From positions 1-38,581 of the IMG/VR virus record IMGVR_UViG_3300037202_000025: a DNA stretch of 38,581 nucleotides. One strand, given 5' to 3'. Numbering within the stretch: the first letter of the stretch is position 1; every line of letters starts with the position of its first letter. The notes beneath the pieces were generated by a model. The model worked only from the letters and a program-made list of their open reading frames with translations. It ran no database searches and was not told where the DNA came from. Positions 2,307 through 26,705 of this stretch are shown in pieces. The position numbers were made by a program, and so were the translations under genes. Source of the stretch: a virus.

Positions 2307-2630
2307 CTAGTCTTCTCCTTTGCCTTCGGTGGTTTCCTCGTCATCCGAGGTGATTGAGAGGTCTTCGATCTGAGCTTCCAGTCTACAGCTTTTTCGGTCG
2401 CTATTCTCATCCGCGCTCACGCTGGTAACCCTAGCCATGAAGTGGCCGTGGAAGATACCACCGACAAAGGCATCGGCGTGATCAATCTTGAGCTTTTCGA
2501 GTTCCTTGTCAGTCAGGGTGATGCGTAACCCGAATGGGTACTCCGGCCGCATCGGCATCGGCATGGGGCAGCAGGCGTCGAGGGAATCCTCGTCGTCATA
2601 TTCCATCGACGTTAGCGGCCTAAGTGGCAT
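2307..2630 (-). CDS. Possible capsid staple/cement-type protein, 107 aa
   Basis: The N-terminal third has Met/Pro repeats (CCPMPMPMRPEYPFG). The core (about residues 34-95) has the pattern LRITLTDKELEKL, then GHFMARVTSVSADEN, then CRLEAQIEDLSI, and the tail is acidic. The core pattern resembles small phage proteins annotated as capsid staple proteins, which bind the outer capsid. That resemblance is from memory of the family, not a search. A TAGGAAC ribosome site precedes the ATG, overlapping the end of the upstream gene. Confidence 0.5.
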   Translation of the reverse strand: MPLRPLTSMEYDDEDSLDACCPMPMPMRPEYPFGLRITLTDKELEKLKIDHADAFVGGIFHGHFMARVTSVSADENSDRKSCRLEAQIEDLSITSDDEETTEGKGED

Positions 2631-2639
2631 CGGCTGTTC

Positions 2640-3101
2640 CTACGCTGCCGCCGGCATCTGTGGCTGTGGCATGCCCGGAGGAGCGCCACCGGGGGCTCCG
2701 CCTGGGGCTGGGGCGGCACCTTCAGCGCCGGGGGCCGCCGGTGCCGCACCCTGCGCGAGCTCCTGCATCTGCTGGTCGGCCATGTCCTTGTGCGCCTTCT
2801 CGTGGCGCGAGTTCATCTTGCGGTGCTCCTCACGGTGGTTGCCGTGCATATCGCGCCGTTCCGTCTCGTGCGTCTTGTTCATGGCTTCGCGCGCCTCGGC
2901 GTGGCGCTCGTTGATCGACTTTGCGGCCGGTTCCGCAGGCTCATCGCCTTCGGCCGCCGCTTCCTTCTTGGGCTCGGTGCGCTCCTCTTTGGCGCTGCCC
3001 TCCTTGCCCTCTTTCTTTTCGTCGCCGCTGCGGTGCTTCTTAGAAGCAGGATGGTCGTAGATAGCCGAACTGCGGCGTTCTTTTTTTTCATCCTTAGCCA
3101 T
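2640..3101 (-). CDS. Charged His/Met-rich helical protein with N-terminal YDHP motif
   Basis: A longer frame exists, but the ATG at 3101 is preceded by a strong AAGGAG, giving 153 residues. Residues 1-25 are basic and contain AIYDHPASKKHRS, a variant of the LYDHPRS motif seen in three other proteins here. The middle is a charged helix with repeated MH/RH/EH steps (RRDMHGNHREEHRKMNSRHE), and the last 45 residues are Pro/Gly/Ala-rich. Similar small proteins occur beside phage structural genes, with no known function. Its start overlaps the end of the endonuclease VII-like gene by 8 nt. Confidence 0.7.
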   Translation of the reverse strand: MAKDEKKERRSSAIYDHPASKKHRSGDEKKEGKEGSAKEERTEPKKEAAAEGDEPAEPAAKSINERHAEAREAMNKTHETERRDMHGNHREEHRKMNSRHEKAHKDMADQQMQELAQGAAPAAPGAEGAAPAPGGAPGGAPPGMPQPQMPAAA

Positions 3102-3618
3102 GTTGCTTCTCCTTGTGCATATTTTGATGGGCTTCCAGGTAGTCAGCCGCCATACGGCAAGCGGCCACACTGTCCTTAAATGCTCCTAAAGCCATATTGC
3201 ATGGCTTACAAAGTATTCCACGAATTGCATGCCGCCCCGCAGCGCGACGCTTATTTCCATTGCTCATTTGTCTATCGTGATCCACGCACAGCATCTCGTT
3301 TTTTGGCGGCTTGCATTTGCAAATGGCGCAGCCACCGCCCTGATTAGCCAGAATTTCATAATATTCCCGCTCTGTTAATCCGTAGAAATACTTTAATTTT
3401 CCTTTGACGTGGTAGCCTGGATTTTCGGCGCGCCACTTTTGGCCTGCTGCTCTCGCCACTGGCCGATAGCATGTCTTGCATTGGTGCCAGCGCCCATTTT
3501 TGTTTCTCTTATAATTGTTAAATTCAGACAGCGGCTTAACAATGCCGCACTTGGTGCAGCGCTTCTCCAATAGAGCGCCGGCGAGTGACACGACGCTGAG
3601 CATTGGCTGATTAGTCAT
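3094..3618 (-). CDS. Endonuclease VII-type HNH nuclease (mobile endonuclease)
   Basis: 174 residues. An N-terminal zinc-ribbon-like stretch (CTKCG near residue 21, CKTCY near 48) is followed by the recombination endonuclease VII core: CAICKCKPP, then LCVDHDRQ, then IRGILCKPCNMALG. The DH pair and the CxxC pairs are the expected metal and catalytic residues. In phage genomes this family often acts as a free-standing homing nuclease; it could alternatively resolve branched DNA at packaging. The start overlaps the previous stop by 8 nt (ATGACTAA), and its end overlaps the next ribosome site and start, so it is tightly packed between two small structural-type genes. Confidence 0.85.
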   Translation of the reverse strand: MTNQPMLSVVSLAGALLEKRCTKCGIVKPLSEFNNYKRNKNGRWHQCKTCYRPVARAAGQKWRAENPGYHVKGKLKYFYGLTEREYYEILANQGGGCAICKCKPPKNEMLCVDHDRQMSNGNKRRAAGRHAIRGILCKPCNMALGAFKDSVAACRMAADYLEAHQNMHKEKQHG

Positions 3619-20590: not shown

Positions 20591-21286
20591 TCATTGTGAC
20601 ATATTTCCAGGCTGTCCACCACCCTGCTGAACCATGCGTCCACACAGTCGGCCATCAGGTCCATGTAAGCGAACTCGTCCTTCAGCCTTCCATCTTACAT
20701 GCCGTCGTCGCGCCGCGATCCGCATTTTCTCAATTGCCTCAGGTGATCGTTTTTTTCCTAGCGACTGCCTTGAAAACGCGGCGAGGTTTTCCGGCGTATT
20801 GAGAGCTTTCCGAATTGCTGCTCTCCGTTTTTCTTCAATCCGTGGATCGTATCTAAAAGAATTCAATTTTTGTCGGGAAAGAGCTTGCCGTTCTGGTGTT
20901 AGCAGCAGTTGCGAGAGCTTAGGATTTTTGACACCGATCAATCTATTTCTAGTGGCCTGCTTTTGTTTTTCTGATCCTGGGCGTCCTTTGTTGACAAACG
21001 CCATCGGTCTTAAGTTAAAGCCACCATTTTTGAAATATGCATCGAATCCGTCCATTATGATTTGCTCGTACATCTCCAAATCGGACTGCTCGCATATCAA
21101 GATTGTTTCGAACGTAAAGTTATCACGCCCATGCCTATCCCATGAATTCTGCAATCGTGCATTACGATGCTTGCCGTTAGTTAGGCTTATAAAATGATCA
21201 TGCATCCGACGTTTGATGTTCTTCGAACTGCCGACATAGCATTTTCCGTTTACTTCGTTCACTATTTTGTAAATGCCAGATGTCAT
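20591..21286 (-). CDS. GIY-YIG homing endonuclease with NUMOD-type repeats
   Basis: 231 residues. The GIY-YIG core is GIYKIVNEVNGKCYVGSSKN, followed by RRMHDHFISL and the catalytic-region E in FETILICE. Helical DNA-binding repeats of NUMOD3 type follow (TRNRLIGVKNPKLS, KRRAAIRKALNTPEN, SRQSLGKKRSPEA). The start overlaps the portal stop as ATGA. The last 15 residues (RMVQQGGGQPGNMSQ) resemble a portal C terminus rather than an endonuclease end, so this gene may have captured the displaced 3' end of the portal gene. GC content is lower than that of its neighbours. Confidence 0.9.
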   Translation of the reverse strand: MTSGIYKIVNEVNGKCYVGSSKNIKRRMHDHFISLTNGKHRNARLQNSWDRHGRDNFTFETILICEQSDLEMYEQIIMDGFDAYFKNGGFNLRPMAFVNKGRPGSEKQKQATRNRLIGVKNPKLSQLLLTPERQALSRQKLNSFRYDPRIEEKRRAAIRKALNTPENLAAFSRQSLGKKRSPEAIEKMRIAARRRHVRWKAEGRVRLHGPDGRLCGRMVQQGGGQPGNMSQ

Positions 21287-23124
21287 TGGCCCGCGCCTTG
21301 CTGAGAACCCATCATAGCACTTAAGGCATTTCCTGGCGCAACTTGCGTTTCAGAAAGAGTTTTAGCCGCAGCAACTGCGGCAGCTGCTTGATCTGGCGCT
21401 TTTGCCTGCTGCTGCGCCTTGGCTCGTATCTGATCGTGCTGCTCGACCTCGTCGTCGGTGAAGACGCAATCGTTCGGGAAGTTGTTGAGCTCGCTGTATT
21501 TCCGATACGCCTTGTCGAGGTTGATGACGCGGAGCGGATCCGGAACGCCGGCGGCTTTGGCCGCACTTGAGAGCGCTCCGCCTGTGGCGAAGGTGTCCTT
21601 CATGGCGACCGACTCAGCCGACTTCTGCGCCAGCTTCATGATCGAAAGATAATTGATTTTCAGCGGCACGTTGCGCAGTGAATCCGGCATCGGCTTGAGC
21701 ATCTTCCGGCGCTGCAGGATGTCGATCACGCGCATGATGCCGTTGTTGAGTTCTTTCTCCGCTAGGTCGACGACTGGGCCCAACTCCTGCAAGCGCTCGA
21801 GGTCGCGCTTGGTGAGTTCGAGCTCGTTGCGCGGTTGGACGCCTTCCATCCGGCTGATCGCCATGAACAGGTCGACGAACAAGCATTTGTCGATGCGCGC
21901 GGCTACCATTTTGATGTCTTCGACCAACGGGCTGAGCCATGCGGCGCTTACCTCGAAGAGCGGGAAGAATCCCTTCTTGCCGCCGTCGGTGTTGAAATAC
22001 GTGATGTTGGACGGAATGATCGAGGCCGGCTCGTTTTTGAGTTCTGGGCTTGCTCCCATCGGAGGCCGCACGCCCTTCTCGATGAATTCTGCCTTGCGCC
22101 TCGTCTCGAGTTGGATCTGCTTGGTGTCGCCGATCGCGTCCATGCAGGGGCTGCGGCCGTATGCGTCGTTGGAGACCGTCGACCACTTGAATGCCATGAA
22201 CGGCGGGGCATTGAACCCGTGCTTGCTCAGCGCTTTTTCGGTTTTGACGCCCTTGAGCCAGTACACCTCGCGATAAGTGAAGGTTCCGGGCACTACGTTG
22301 AACGGCCTGGCGGTGATGTCGCCGCGGTGGGAAAGCTGGAAGTTAGGCTCGATCGCGTGGCAAACCACAAATTCCATATCGAGCGACGATCCGCCCTTTC
22401 CCCACAGGTCTGCGACCTGCCTTGGGCAGTTCTTGAGCTGGAATTGGTCGACGATCTGCTGGACCGTGAGGGTGAATTCGCGGAACAGCGTGGTGGTTGA
22501 GAAGCGCGCGCCGACGGCGAGGAAATATTCGCCCGCGCATGGCAGGTAGCATCGGATGACGTCCTCGGCATCCTCGTAGATGATGACCGGCGCAGTGCCG
22601 ATCACAGTCACGTCCTGAAACGCCTGCGACATCGTCGTGTAGAAGTTCGATTGCGCGAGCACCGTGTAGGCTCGCTGCTCGGTATCCTCAAGCCAGTCCT
22701 TGCCATCGGCGTCGAGTTTTACCCATGGCAGGCCTATGCCCAGTTTAAACCACGGTCTTGATGGCGATGTGAGTCCTGTCCACATGCCGGCCGAGCATGT
22801 CCTGACCGCCAGCGTGCCAGTCGAATCGATTATCTGGTCGTTAAGGGAATTGCCGCGGTCCATCCGATTGGCGACGACCAGCCAGTGGTATCGTCGTGGG
22901 ATAAAGAACTTCGCGAGCACTGCCCAGAACGCCCACCATGAGTATCGCCAGGTTCGCAGCATCCCGAGGCGCTGCTCGAGGTACGCGAACGTGGAGTCCC
23001 ACTCGCGGTTCTCTTTGATTGGCTTCTCTGGGAGTTTGACCGGCTGCTTGGAGAGCAGCGTGGCTGACATCAATTCGTATGGCGCCGCATCCGGAGTTGC
23101 GTTGAGCGCGACGCTGAGGGCCAC
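21283..23124 (-). CDS. Portal (head-to-tail connecting) protein
   Basis: 613 residues from a GTG with GGAGAAA upstream. The sequence fits the podovirus head-tail connector family: early WRYSWWAFWAVLAKFFIPRR, then NSLNDQIIDSTGTLAVRTCS with GMWTGLTSPSRPWFKL, and the later KRDLERLQELGPVVDLAEKE. The dodecameric portal sits at one capsid vertex and binds terminase during packaging. The C terminus is Ala/Gln-rich and ends MMGSQQGAGQ, directly coupled to the GIY-YIG gene; this end may have been rewritten by that insertion. Confidence 0.9.
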   Translation of the reverse strand: MALSVALNATPDAAPYELMSATLLSKQPVKLPEKPIKENREWDSTFAYLEQRLGMLRTWRYSWWAFWAVLAKFFIPRRYHWLVVANRMDRGNSLNDQIIDSTGTLAVRTCSAGMWTGLTSPSRPWFKLGIGLPWVKLDADGKDWLEDTEQRAYTVLAQSNFYTTMSQAFQDVTVIGTAPVIIYEDAEDVIRCYLPCAGEYFLAVGARFSTTTLFREFTLTVQQIVDQFQLKNCPRQVADLWGKGGSSLDMEFVVCHAIEPNFQLSHRGDITARPFNVVPGTFTYREVYWLKGVKTEKALSKHGFNAPPFMAFKWSTVSNDAYGRSPCMDAIGDTKQIQLETRRKAEFIEKGVRPPMGASPELKNEPASIIPSNITYFNTDGGKKGFFPLFEVSAAWLSPLVEDIKMVAARIDKCLFVDLFMAISRMEGVQPRNELELTKRDLERLQELGPVVDLAEKELNNGIMRVIDILQRRKMLKPMPDSLRNVPLKINYLSIMKLAQKSAESVAMKDTFATGGALSSAAKAAGVPDPLRVINLDKAYRKYSELNNFPNDCVFTDDEVEQHDQIRAKAQQQAKAPDQAAAAVAAAKTLSETQVAPGNALSAMMGSQQGAGQ

Positions 23125-23125
23125 G

Positions 23126-23347
23126 TTAGGTTTCTCCGCCTAGCGTCTTTTTTGCTGTGTTGGGGTTTGCGGCACCCTCTGGGCCTGTCTGGACGGTATC
23201 GCTCATTCCCTTGCCGGCGGCTGCGGCGGCTGCTCGAGCTGCGGCTGCACCAGCTCCTTGCGTAGATGCGCTAGCTAAAATCGGCGGCATTGGAGGCGGT
23301 GGCGGTGGCGGCGGCGCGGCTGGTGCTGACGGGGCTAGGAAGCTCAA
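23126..23347 (-). CDS. Small Pro/Ala-rich protein, 73 aa, TTG start
   Basis: A TTG at 23347 with GGAGGA upstream opens 73 codons: a poly-Pro stretch near residues 12-20 (PPPPPPPPMPP), an Ala-rich helix (AGAAAARAAAAAAGKG) and a polar tail. It is probably disordered. Similar Pro/Ala-rich small proteins sit between terminase and portal in related phages. The ribosome site lies inside the displaced last codons of terL, so it was originally coupled to terminase. Its stop overlaps the portal's ribosome site. Confidence 0.6.
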   Translation of the reverse strand: MSFLAPSAPAAPPPPPPPPMPPILASASTQGAGAAAARAAAAAAGKGMSDTVQTGPEGAANPNTAKKTLGGET

Positions 23348-23350
23348 GGG

Positions 23351-23425
23351 CTATCCTCCGCGGAATGGATCGTAGGGCGCGCTCCCTCCATACGACTTGT
23401 TGACATGGGTTTCAAGGTCACCACC
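23351..23425 (-). pseudogene. Displaced 3' end of the large terminase gene
   Basis: This short open stretch encodes GGDLETHVNKSYGGSAPYDP then FRGG and a stop. The present terminase end reads ADLEKSVEKSYDPFNE. The two share DLE, V, KSY and (Y)DPF, and at DNA level TGACCTTGA. The stop lies 3 bp before the start of the next gene, where a terminase stop would be expected. I infer that this is the ancestral end, now cut off by the HNH gene, while terminase carries a replacement copy. A group I intron joining the two parts is a less likely alternative. Confidence 0.6.
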
Positions 23426-23438
23426 AGCAGTAGAGAAA

Positions 23439-24017
23439 TTAAAGCAGCATGCCGTTTTCCTGCGCCCACTCAATCGGATGCTTGGCATGCTTCCGTTGAT
23501 TGCACAGCGGACAGAGAAGTTGGATGTTTTTGATATTATTAGAACCACCGCGCGCTAGCGCAATAATATGATCCTCATTGTAACTTTTCGCGATAGGCAC
23601 CCGACATACTGGATTCGCACACTTCCATCTCTGCTTACGGCCTAATTCTATTGTTTCTGCTGTAGTGTGGGTTCCACCACCGCCAGCCTTTCGAGTGCGC
23701 CTCTTGTGCCCATCCTGCCTTCGTTGCGCTTTGGTTTCTGCTGGTTTGCAGAGGCGCATTACTCTCACGCGCTCAACCTGCTTCGCCATTGAACCGGGTT
23801 TCGAATAATATCTTTTGTTCGCGCGTCGCCGTTCCTCCGGCTCACGCACTCGCTTTAATCCTTTTTGTCGCAAGAAAGTGCATTCGACACACGTTCCATT
23901 GATGACATAACGAATTGGCCTATGGCCGAAGCGACAGGGCCGGATTGATCCGAATTTGACCGAGCCAGCGCGCCGCGCTGCTACTCTATTTGCCCCATCT
24001 TGGTCCTTCGGTTTCAT
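23439..24017 (-). CDS. HNH endonuclease inserted at the 3' end of terL
   Basis: The frame is open from 24071; the ATG at 24017 gives 192 residues and none of the candidate starts has a good ribosome site. The N terminus has a zinc-type region (CRFGHRPIRYVINGTCVECT), the middle is basic, and the C-terminal HNH domain reads RWKCANPVCRVPIAKSYNED, then HIIALARGGSNNIKN, then LLCPLCNQRKHAK. Catalytic H and N and two CxxC pairs are present. It overlaps the terminase 3' end, and its end is followed by the displaced terminase tail. This is the layout of a homing endonuclease that targets terL. Confidence 0.85.
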   Translation of the reverse strand: MKPKDQDGANRVAARRAGSVKFGSIRPCRFGHRPIRYVINGTCVECTFLRQKGLKRVREPEERRRANKRYYSKPGSMAKQVERVRVMRLCKPAETKAQRRQDGHKRRTRKAGGGGTHTTAETIELGRKQRWKCANPVCRVPIAKSYNEDHIIALARGGSNNIKNIQLLCPLCNQRKHAKHPIEWAQENGMLL

Positions 24018-26490
24018 TGAACGGATCATAAGACTTTTCGACGCTTTTCTCAAGGTCAGCGAATGGATCATAATTTGCTTTTATCGGCTGCGGACGCCTC
24101 ATTGCTGGCTTGACGGTGACCGGTTCTGCGAAGGTCATGATCGCTGCGTCGAACTCGTCGGGAGAGTATCCGATCTTGATCTTCACGTCTTCCTTCGGCT
24201 CCAGCAGGAACCTGTCCCGGTAAAACGTGTACGTGGTCTGCGTCAGTGCGGCCAACAGTTCGGGACATTCCGGTAGCCCGCCGCCTCGTTTGATCCACTC
24301 GACGAATTCGAACGCCATCTCGGCCCGCTTGTTGAAATAGCGCGACTTCTCGTGCGCCTCGCCGGCAAACTGCACGCCGATCGGGTCCCTGCCCATGTTG
24401 ACCAGCTGGTCGATCCAGCCGCCGCCGTAGCCGCCGGTCGCGTCGACGAAGCAGGCGTTTGCACCCCAATCGTCCCAGGTTCTTGCTACCCATCCCGCTC
24501 CTTGCGTGCTGTCGATGTTGCGCTTCTTGTCGAAGGGATACATCTGAATCCCTTCACGTTTGGCGAGCACGCTCGCGTCATCACCGAACCTGGCGACGTC
24601 GGCCGCGATGATCTTCGCCGCGGTGCCAATCTGGAACGGCCGGTAGAAGCGCTTCATCGCCTCACTGACCTCATCGGGCCCGATGAGCACGTTGATGCTG
24701 CTCGGTGGGAATTTTCCGAACACATTCACCAACACCCAGGGGTTGTCTTTGCCGTATTTCTCGATCTGCTGGCGCGCCCACTCGACCGAGATGCGCGGAC
24801 TCCGCTTGGGATCGTCCGGATCGCCTGTGATCTCGACGACGTACCAGAGCCTCTTTTCGGATGTGCAGGCCCGGTAAAGCGGGCCCGAGAGCATGGTCGG
24901 GTTGCCGGCTTGGACGATGTGACCCTCGATGCAGCTCGAGAGGGCCGCTTCGGCGCTCACCATAATCGCCTCTGGCATCGATCCGGATTCGTCGAGGATG
25001 AACAGGATGTAATCGGCGTGCAGCCCGGCCAGCGTGTCCGCCTGCTTGCTCGCGTCGGCCGACTGCGGCCATGTCCGGGCCGACATAAACCATTCTTCGG
25101 GCGCCGCGCGATAGCTAATGCGCTGTGCCGTCCATTCGAATGCCCGCTTGAGATATTCGTTTTTGTTCTGCCACTTCGCCATCTCGGTCCAGAAGTTGTC
25201 CTTGAGGTTCTGGCCGCTGATCGACGTTGCCGCGCACTTGGGCCGCGGCCTGGTCAGTAGGAAATTCCACGCGATCCATGCCTCTACCGTGGTGTTGTGT
25301 GTGACGATGAAGCTGTCGTCGGTGAGATAAAGGTGATCCGGGTGGTCAACCTCGATGCATAGGCAGTGCGCTTCGCCGTCCTTCTCGATGCTATCGATCT
25401 TTCGCGTCATGTACCGGATGGTTGAGGGTGCGCGCGCTGGGTCTGTCCATCGCGAGCGCCGATGCGGCACGCGGAACGGGTTGAACGGGAGCCTAACCGT
25501 TACTCGATAGCAATCCCGACCAACGATCTTCACTCGGTCCTTGTCGTAATAGAACGGCTTTTTAATCGCCTTCTTGCGGAACGCCACGCCGCCGAGCGAT
25601 CGCACTAGCCACACGACGTGATCCGCCAGTCTTTCTGAGGTGGTCCCGTATTCCATGTGGCCGTCACGATCAATGCCGCCGTCGGTATCCATGAGCCCGC
25701 ACATCAAATCGCGGCGCTGGTCAACACTGGCATGGCGATACTTGCTAGGGATAAACCGCTCGTACGAGTAGCGCGCTGCGAGTTGCATGTGGCGGAGATG
25801 CCCCACAATTCCATAGACGTTTACGATGCCTGCGCTCTCGCCACTCGTTTCGTAGCCGCGGCGCTGGATCTCCTGCTCGATCTCATTGGTTGGCTTCGTC
25901 GCGTATCTGCCAGTCTCACGCACGCCGTCACCAAGCCAAACTCCCAGCACATAAGGGTCGAGCGGCAAATCGGCATGTGGGAACTGCGCGGCACCTTGGC
26001 GCGGTATCTCGAAATGCCTGCCGGCCCAGCGGCCGTTCTTCTCCCGAACTCCGCGCTTGATGATCTCGTCGGTGGATAGGATCGACCATGTATCGTGCCG
26101 TCGTTCTGTCCGTCCGCGCACCTTCCATAGGTGCTCGCCGCATGCTCGTGTGGTCGATCCGTCGTCAAATGTAATTCTGTAAACTGGCAAGACGCCGCGA
26201 TTATAGACGCCGCGCACCGTGGTGATCGAACCGTCGCCGGCAAATATGCGGTCGCCCGGCTTGAGCATCCCCATCGATTGCTCGCCCCATGGCGTGTAGA
26301 TGCGCGTGTCGTGAGGTTGCGCTTTTCCCGGGCCTTTGCATGCCTTCATGGCGAGGCGCTGGCTGTGCGGGAAGGCCTCGAGCGCTTCTTCCTGCCACTT
26401 GTCCGGCTCTACGCCGAACATTTCGCGCACCATTTGGCTCGGATGCTCGCGCCAAACCTTGAGACGGTTGGCTATTTCCTTTTCTTTCAT
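23986..26490 (-). CDS. terL: Terminase large subunit with an in-frame intein
   Basis: The ATG at 26490 overlaps the upstream stop (ATGA) and gives 834 residues, of which 57-399 are an intein; the spliced protein would have 491, normal for the family. Walker A (CKGPGK-TT) is split by the intein after K56. Walker B with its catalytic Glu is YILFILDESG (about 494-503). The nuclease domain begins at IIAADVARFGDD (about 627), with later acidic residues in CFVDATGG and EFDAAIMTF. It packages DNA into the head through the portal. The last 20 residues appear to be a rewritten copy of the displaced tail at 23351-23425. Confidence 0.93.
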   Translation of the reverse strand: MKEKEIANRLKVWREHPSQMVREMFGVEPDKWQEEALEAFPHSQRLAMKACKGPGKAQPHDTRIYTPWGEQSMGMLKPGDRIFAGDGSITTVRGVYNRGVLPVYRITFDDGSTTRACGEHLWKVRGRTERRHDTWSILSTDEIIKRGVREKNGRWAGRHFEIPRQGAAQFPHADLPLDPYVLGVWLGDGVRETGRYATKPTNEIEQEIQRRGYETSGESAGIVNVYGIVGHLRHMQLAARYSYERFIPSKYRHASVDQRRDLMCGLMDTDGGIDRDGHMEYGTTSERLADHVVWLVRSLGGVAFRKKAIKKPFYYDKDRVKIVGRDCYRVTVRLPFNPFRVPHRRSRWTDPARAPSTIRYMTRKIDSIEKDGEAHCLCIEVDHPDHLYLTDDSFIVTHNTTVEAWIAWNFLLTRPRPKCAATSISGQNLKDNFWTEMAKWQNKNEYLKRAFEWTAQRISYRAAPEEWFMSARTWPQSADASKQADTLAGLHADYILFILDESGSMPEAIMVSAEAALSSCIEGHIVQAGNPTMLSGPLYRACTSEKRLWYVVEITGDPDDPKRSPRISVEWARQQIEKYGKDNPWVLVNVFGKFPPSSINVLIGPDEVSEAMKRFYRPFQIGTAAKIIAADVARFGDDASVLAKREGIQMYPFDKKRNIDSTQGAGWVARTWDDWGANACFVDATGGYGGGWIDQLVNMGRDPIGVQFAGEAHEKSRYFNKRAEMAFEFVEWIKRGGGLPECPELLAALTQTTYTFYRDRFLLEPKEDVKIKIGYSPDEFDAAIMTFAEPVTVKPAMRRPQPIKANYDPFADLEKSVEKSYDPFNETEGPRWGK
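25294..26322 (-). mobile_element. Intein with LAGLIDADG endonuclease in the terL Walker A motif
   Basis: 343 codons interrupt terL between K56 and T400. The first residue is Ala (AQPHDTRIYTPWGE), as in class-2 type inteins that lack Cys1. Block A/B features follow (MLKPGDRIFAGDGS, TTRACGEHLWKV). The endonuclease has two LAGLIDADG-like helices, YVLGVWLGDG and LMCGLMDTDG. The C-terminal end is HPDHLYLTDDSFIVTHN followed by Thr, the expected His-Asn plus Thr nucleophile. Removal restores GPGKTT exactly. Both splicing and endonuclease parts look intact. Confidence 0.93.
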
Positions 26491-26705
26491 CGAAGCAGCA
26501 GCGCCGGCGCCCACGTCGCCACCCAAACGAGCGCCGCGGCTATGCAGATCATCAATACCGGCCACGCGAGGTTCGTCGTCATCGTGAGGCGCGTCTCGCG
26601 CCACCACTTCTCGTGCTCGGCGCGATATGCCGCCTCCAGCCGTGATCGCTCTGGCTCGTCGTAAGCTAGCCAGTACGGCACTGTCGGTGGCGGCATGATC
26701 ATCAT
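26487..26705 (-). CDS. Small membrane protein, 72 aa
   Basis: It begins MMIMPPPTVPYWLAYDEPER, has a charged middle and ends in one membrane helix (WPVLMICIAAALVWVATWAP then ALLLR). Start and stop both overlap their neighbours as ATGA, which strongly supports the reading. Single-helix proteins of this kind can be holins, spanins or envelope modifiers, but the place in the packaging block does not decide this. No family is recognised. Confidence 0.65.
   Translation of the reverse strand: MMIMPPPTVPYWLAYDEPERSRLEAAYRAEHEKWWRETRLTMTTNLAWPVLMICIAAALVWVATWAPALLLR

Follow-up and report, generated by a model that had tools for sequence, protein, structure and literature searches.

A phage HNH endonuclease gene that probably brought a substitute C-terminal end for the terminase gene it interrupts

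Two ways are well known in which a homing endonuclease can reside inside an essential gene and leave it functional: inteins and group I introns. A third way is known from fungal mitochondria, where in the mORF hybrids of Allomyces atp6 and of Glomus atp6, atp9, cox2 and nad3 an endonuclease open reading frame (ORF) is joined by a C-terminal end of foreign origin that is in phase with the target gene, the native C terminus lying downstream (PMC3630166). Three other described systems bear on what follows: the free-standing endonucleases of phage T4 (seg, mob), whose cleavage sites are separated from the insertion site by hundreds or thousands of bp (PMC2988022); the ShiLan domain, a hidden HNH inside a phage methylase that is read through in frame (PMC11855218); and the engineered home-and-rescue drive HomeR, in which the nuclease sits at an essential gene's 3' end and a re-coded C terminus of 22-27 residues restores function and is immune to cleavage (PMC7968924). 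Here we analyse an HNH endonuclease gene at the 3' end of the large terminase gene, terL, in a viral sequence of 38,581 bases (IMG/VR record IMGVR_UViG_3300037202_000025, hereafter the window). Our analysis indicates that the third way appears at phage terL, and that it recurs around related HNH genes, both at gene starts and at gene ends. We put at roughly 0.8 the probability that the 3' part of terL received a free-standing HNH homing endonuclease gene along with a terL 3' end of foreign origin.

The comparison that carries this reading is with L002, a sister-sample relative and the closest distinct locus among the 19 that a terL search of viral contigs returned (82% terL protein identity), which has no HNH gene and which we call empty. 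The elements of the junction, all of them on the minus strand of the window like those of the portal junction treated below, are as follows.

26607..23986, minus: ORF of terL (large terminase), interrupted in frame by an intein and closing with the substitute tail (ORF call; tblastn to phage terminases; PHROG terminase matches).
24087..23986, minus: probably imported terL 3' end, encoding the substitute C terminus IKANYDPFADLEKSVEKSYDPFNETEGPRWGK and a stop (alignments; GC).
24058-24050, minus: TGACCTTGA, first copy, at the start of the substitute tail (sequence).
24029..23439, minus: HNH endonuclease gene (Pfam HNH 1.9e-10, HNH_5 1.8e-10; PHROG endonuclease VII/HNH; aligned residues).
23425..23351, minus: native end of terL, GGDLETHVNKSYGGSAPYDPFRGG, left behind together with its original stop TAG (24-residue match to the L002 terL end; codon-position differences).
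23420-23412, minus: TGACCTTGA, second copy, at the start of the left-behind tail (sequence; alignment).
23126..23347, minus: small Pro-rich gene, which directly follows terL in the empty L002 (phrog_831; L002 comparison).

In L002 the terL C terminus reads GEDLETQVNKSYGGSAPYDPFRSG before the stop (DLETQVNKSYGGSAPYDPFRSG and AAYDPFGEDLETQVNKSYGGSAPYDPFRSG being parts and forms of this ending), followed by the same Pro-rich gene and then by the portal gene. Since L002 terL ends alike and has the same Pro-rich gene directly next, the stranded stretch downstream of the HNH gene is, by its sequence, the native terL end, which terL itself no longer uses and which still lies ahead of the next gene. 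Nearly all of its 24 residues are identical to the L002 tail (BLOSUM score 114, with none of 5000 shuffles as high), and when both strands of the whole 38.6 kb window are scanned with the L002 tail DNA, the leftover comes out on top with 77 against 23 for the next, unrelated hit. The nucleotide differences between leftover and L002 fall 2, 3 and 13 times at codon positions one, two and three, and this concentration at third positions suggests that the leftover was under selection at the protein level until recently. A more distant relative, L003 (59%), is likewise empty, so that the HNH gene is sporadic in its distribution, and none of the ~50 terL relatives that we examined has it at the terL junction. 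A second contig, IMG/VR 3300037140_000024, has an identical junction, with 99.9% identity over 11.2 kb across it, which argues that the junction is no artefact or chimera of a single assembly. We also observed that in L047, L049, L051 and L052 the slot between terL and portal is variable: behind near-identical terL ends it holds differing cargo, among it small membrane proteins and a methylase-like gene.

The present terL C terminus, by contrast with that of L002, reads NYDPFADLEKSVEKSYDPFNETEGPRWGK (longer stretch PIKANYDPFADLEKSVEKSYDPFNETEGPRWGK) and stops at 23986. The insertion point lies within the terL coding sequence, immediately past the YDPF codons. Identity to L002 falls in the alignment from 0.89 across the preceding 162 codons to ~63% (~17/27) directly before the junction, so that the imported stretch, whose left edge is somewhere between ~24087 and 24061, probably begins at ~24087; the right edge of the insert is at ~23430-23420, for a length of ~640-660 bp, ~580 of which is the HNH ORF. 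What now ends terL still resembles a terL tail: as protein it matches the L002 tail with a BLOSUM score of 57 (0/5000 shuffles as high) and the leftover with a score of 36 (3/5000), it has a DLE..V.KSY core and TGACCTTGA in common with the leftover, and it retains the YDPF...SYDPF pattern, the usual form of an aromatic-x-P-F/Y motif found near the terL end in 42 of 48 distinct relatives' tails. The nearest of those tails are those of L029, L054 and L060, whereas the leftover is nearest to that of L002; none of the 48 matches the new tail, and its ending ETEGPRWGK, an extension whose DNA also encodes the beginning of the HNH gene, is absent from all the relatives' tails compared. Composition also sets it apart, with a GC content of 0.453 for the new tail (24060-23986) against 0.607 for the terL body (binomial p 0.005), and with 0.515 for the HNH gene and 0.573 for the leftover. 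As in the mORF hybrids, the new tail is in phase with the host terL and diverged from the native end. We conclude that the present end is probably a genuine terL-type tail of foreign origin.

A sequence-only reading of the window had already described a terL end, an overlapping HNH gene and a stranded second end, an arrangement that the ORFs, the tail scan and the protein shuffles confirm. Its forecast that an HNH-less terL would end in DLETHVNKSY...YDPFRGG with the Pro-rich gene directly next is borne out in L002, and HNH-less relatives already ending in EKSYDPFNETEGPRWGK, which would have spoken against it, do not occur among the 48 distinct tails. Its claim that the two ends share both protein pattern and DNA holds for the protein homology, which carries the case, and has to be softened for the DNA, since the exact shared sequence is short and consists only of TGACCTTGA. 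Finally, the proposed substitute C terminus stands as a foreign terL tail, where "recoded" should mean acquired from a diverged terL lineage, and it is plausible, as was suggested, that the new tail would abolish the cut site.

The HNH gene, whose reading frame is open from 24071, probably begins at one of two ATGs (24029 or 24017), overlaps the terL end, and has its stop at 23441-23439. Its protein has an N-terminal module of the form CxxGH...C..C and a C-terminal HNH domain whose Pfam HNH and HNH_5 matches exceed the cut-offs. Its phage relatives are 28-54% identical, and an alignment shows conserved D-H, N and C-C residues that it shares with phage relatives; by the Pfam matches and these residues the HNH domain is intact. 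In viral contigs the only close relative found was the copy on the 99.9% identical contig, and a search of genome contigs with the single protein found no relative.

How could such an arrangement arise? We propose that the HNH enzyme would cut HNH-less terL genes near the junction and that repair would copy the HNH gene along with its tail from the donor, with homology arms provided on the left by the terL body and on the right by the native tail, which for this reason would stay behind. The carried end takes the place of ~23 residues, restores the reading frame and the conserved motif, and overlaps the HNH start; being diverged, it would let terL keep working while the site is interrupted. 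The geometry would thus be that of intron homing, with the carried end doing what splicing does for an intron. Homing, cutting, immunity and the function of the hybrid terminase are all steps that we infer from this arrangement.

Does the same happen elsewhere? Starting from an alignment of five HNH proteins, we collected 80 viral and 80 genome loci and asked at each whether the sequence just before the HNH gene is similar to the sequence just after it. Significance was expressed as z against within-segment shuffles, since a raw-score statistic was swamped by low-complexity translations in the wrong frame. Duplicated gene termini at z of at least 5 were seen in 5 of 75 independent HNH clusters, drawn from a family alignment that spans divergent sequences, as against 1 of 250 control ORFs, a modest number (Fisher p 0.003), and the single control seems to consist of two related genes. 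In all five it is the gene start that is duplicated, the mirror form of the terL case:

Synechococcus phage Ssp-JY40: helicase, z at least 5.
L176, Paraburkholderia prophage, 2326-3160: DUF1073 portal, z at least 5.
L142: NinI-like phosphatase, z at least 5.
L184: primase, z at least 5.
L174: unknown gene, z at least 5.

In L176 the copies of the portal start on the two sides of the HNH gene share KRSVKGVAQRASREEK, identical in 16/16 residues, while most codons are synonymously changed. For JY40, L176, L142 and L184, the old start stands in an ATGA-type overlap with the stop of the upstream gene, like a native start, and the new start, a GTG, shares bases with the stop codon of the HNH gene (GTGA); Acidovorax phage AP1 has the native ATGA junction of helicase and primase and no HNH gene. 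In the Synechococcus phages Ssp-JY40 and Yong-M3-232 (L026, 2791-3609) we observed that the old helicase start opens the HNH ORF, and that the helicase has a new, diverged start which overlaps the HNH stop. In a quick tree of the HNH proteins the cases with duplicated termini do not group together.

The 3' form occurs also at L109 and L140, in a gene between terL and portal. L252 and L253, empty relatives of L109, have the end of this gene overlapping the small gene that comes next, which is also how the leftover is placed in L109; the duplication in L140 reaches z 4.8. Two candidates were set aside: Pseudomonas phage IME307 as a 3' case, since MPK9 has another gene there and the tails do not settle the matter, and phiN3, whose duplication score arises from two GIY-YIG motifs. 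We saw no terminus duplication around the GIY-YIG genes of PhiXhv-5 and phiN3, nor around the HNH gene between Sak4 and DUF669 in Rhizobium phage X2_25. This Sak4-DUF669 site is a hot spot, with different HNH-type genes in two Rhizobium/Sinorhizobium phages (L025, 2965-3603; L082, 2313-3053). HNH-like motifs after the portal in L048 and L050 are not genes, as the frames give no support.

On balance we slightly favour the view that these loci represent a widespread class of phage homing endonucleases that insert straight into the coding sequence close to one or the other end of essential genes and carry a diverged replacement end instead of splicing themselves out, the native end left behind being one homology arm, so that each would be a natural home-and-rescue element.

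Several observations weigh against our interpretation. About 68 of the 75 HNH relatives have no detectable terminus duplication, which would mean either that such duplication is not obligatory or that it is quickly erased, and L109 on its own falls short of significance against shuffles (3/100). At terL there is only one closely related empty relative, L002 at 82% terL identity. Moreover, the tail EKSYDPFNETEGPRWGK could not be traced to any donor phage, a DNA-pattern search of viral contigs for the substitute tail returning the known contig and two chance matches in unrelated AT-rich phage DNA; without a donor, the preference for import over local duplication followed by rapid divergence rests on composition and divergence.

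That alternative, in which the terL 3' end was duplicated locally in tandem, the HNH gene entered between the two copies, and one of them diverged afterwards, is the one that survives best, and we regard it as unlikely. It would account for the DLE..V.KSY core and the TGACCTTGA that both copies contain. However, the two copies are far more different from each other than the leftover is from L002, the new tail has a low GC content like that of the HNH gene, the drop in identity on the left side starts ~27 nt ahead of the shared repeat, and no relative was seen that has the duplicated tail but lacks the HNH gene.

A functional rather than parasitic place beside terL would be expected if the HNH protein were a packaging factor, since terL-adjacent HNH genes can assist cos cleavage, with HK97-type phages and skunaviruses (where the gene lies between terL and portal) as examples (PMC10448857, PMC12724721). 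We consider this quite improbable here: none of the ~50 relatives has this HNH gene at the junction, its relatives are found at helicases, phosphatases, primases and portals, and a packaging role leaves the stranded terL end unexplained.

Splicing deserves attention because phage introns commonly carry HNH genes and because a join near 24061/23425 would give back almost exactly the L002 protein. In that case the HNH gene would be encoded in a group I (or II) intron and the terL parts would be spliced to NYDPF(A)GGDLETHVNKSY. We hold this to be very improbable, and the sequence-only reading, which had named a spliced intron as its own possible undoing, is not contradicted on this point. No Rfam family matches the region at E<=5, no intron reaches the gathering score anywhere in the window, the 661-nt region folds with the same energy as shuffles do (z 0.2), and the terL 5' part has its own terL-type tail and stop, which would be superfluous for an intron. 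The core of a group I intron is also too large for the space outside the HNH ORF: of an insert of ~640 bp, ~580 are HNH ORF, and the ~60 nt that remain offer no room for it. An intein was not found at the terL end either, where terL stops at 23986 and the HNH gene is in another frame; the intein in the ATPase domain of terL is an element separate from the HNH insertion. Finally, the two partly homologous tails could be read in either direction, with EKSYDPFNETEGPRWGK native and the HNH gene plus an L002-like tail imported from an L002-like phage, but this reverse polarity has as slight a chance as the intron, since terL body, Pro-rich gene and portal are all L002-like (80-89% DNA identity), only tail and HNH gene differ, and with both flanks L002-like the host lineage should be so too.

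The window holds a probable second case of a stranded gene end, this one at the 3' end of the portal gene:

21283..23124, minus: portal (head-tail connector) gene, with last residues NALSAMMGSQQGAGQ and stop ahead of the GIY-YIG gene (Pfam Head-tail_con 7.9e-101).
21286..20591, minus: GIY-YIG gene overlapping the portal 3' end (Pfam GIY-YIG 3.7e-9).

The last codons of the GIY-YIG ORF (~20640..20591) read GRMVQQGGGQPGNMSQ and stop, in the portal's frame, and L002, which has no GIY-YIG gene, ends its portal with NTALGAMVGQQGGGPPATGGL. Among 1540 windows the L002 portal-tail DNA scores highest at the GIY-YIG end, by a modest margin (30 vs 28), and as protein 61 of 5000 shuffles score as high. 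The GIY-YIG gene would thus probably have the left-behind portal end fused to its own. In L065 (3676-4374) we also observed an HNH-like gene of another kind that separates the small Pro-rich gene from the portal gene and overlaps the start of the latter; the relatives L064 and L067 seem to be without it.

Counting the terL intein, the terL-portal module has three selfish elements (intein, HNH gene, GIY-YIG gene). The intein, of 343 residues, lies at the Walker A motif of terL (GPGK/TT; window 26322..25294, minus), begins with Ala and carries a Trp, a block-F Cys and a THN end, features which we take to be those of class 3 inteins. It is also present in the relatives L035, L041, L051 and L054, and other relatives are without it.

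More generally, duplicated and diverged gene termini around an endonuclease provide a signature that can be searched for in any genome, and the process that we propose may account for diversity being patchy where packaging and replication genes end. Like seg and mob of T4, whose flanks are co-converted, the genes described here are free-standing HNH and GIY-YIG genes beside and overlapping essential genes; unlike them, the terL element is inserted inside the coding sequence and supplies a spare end. The duplication test on 11 T4 genes gave no clear case, and the start MNYDRIY shared by mobC and nrdG is ambiguous, as mobD also starts MNYTKVY. In T4 (L262, 42446-43538) we observed that nrdG beside mobC is strongly unlike its mobC-less relatives over ~nucleotides 90-300 and nearly identical thereafter, and this divergent stretch may be a co-conversion tract. 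Like ShiLan, the terL case places an HNH inside a phage gene as neither intron nor intein, and it differs in having a substitute end and a stranded native end.

In the literature that we searched, most subscription journals being outside its scope, we found no description of phage substitute termini. HomeR, an engineered Cas9 system in flies, is a design analogue of the terL case and not a relative, and loci such as this one are natural examples against which the way engineered gene drives achieve rescue can be compared. Of the kinds already described, the fungal mitochondrial mORF hybrid comes closest. The differences are that mORF hybrids use LAGLIDADG and GIY-YIG types, while here a phage HNH type, and probably a GIY-YIG type too, is found with terL and portal as targets; that the carried tail is very short and overlaps the start of the endonuclease gene; that a mirror form exists at gene starts; and that the phage cases are known from DNA alone. 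What the two have in common is an essential gene whose 3' part holds an endonuclease ORF, and a native C terminus that lies downstream of that ORF and is closer to the relative's sequence, which at terL is that of the empty L002.

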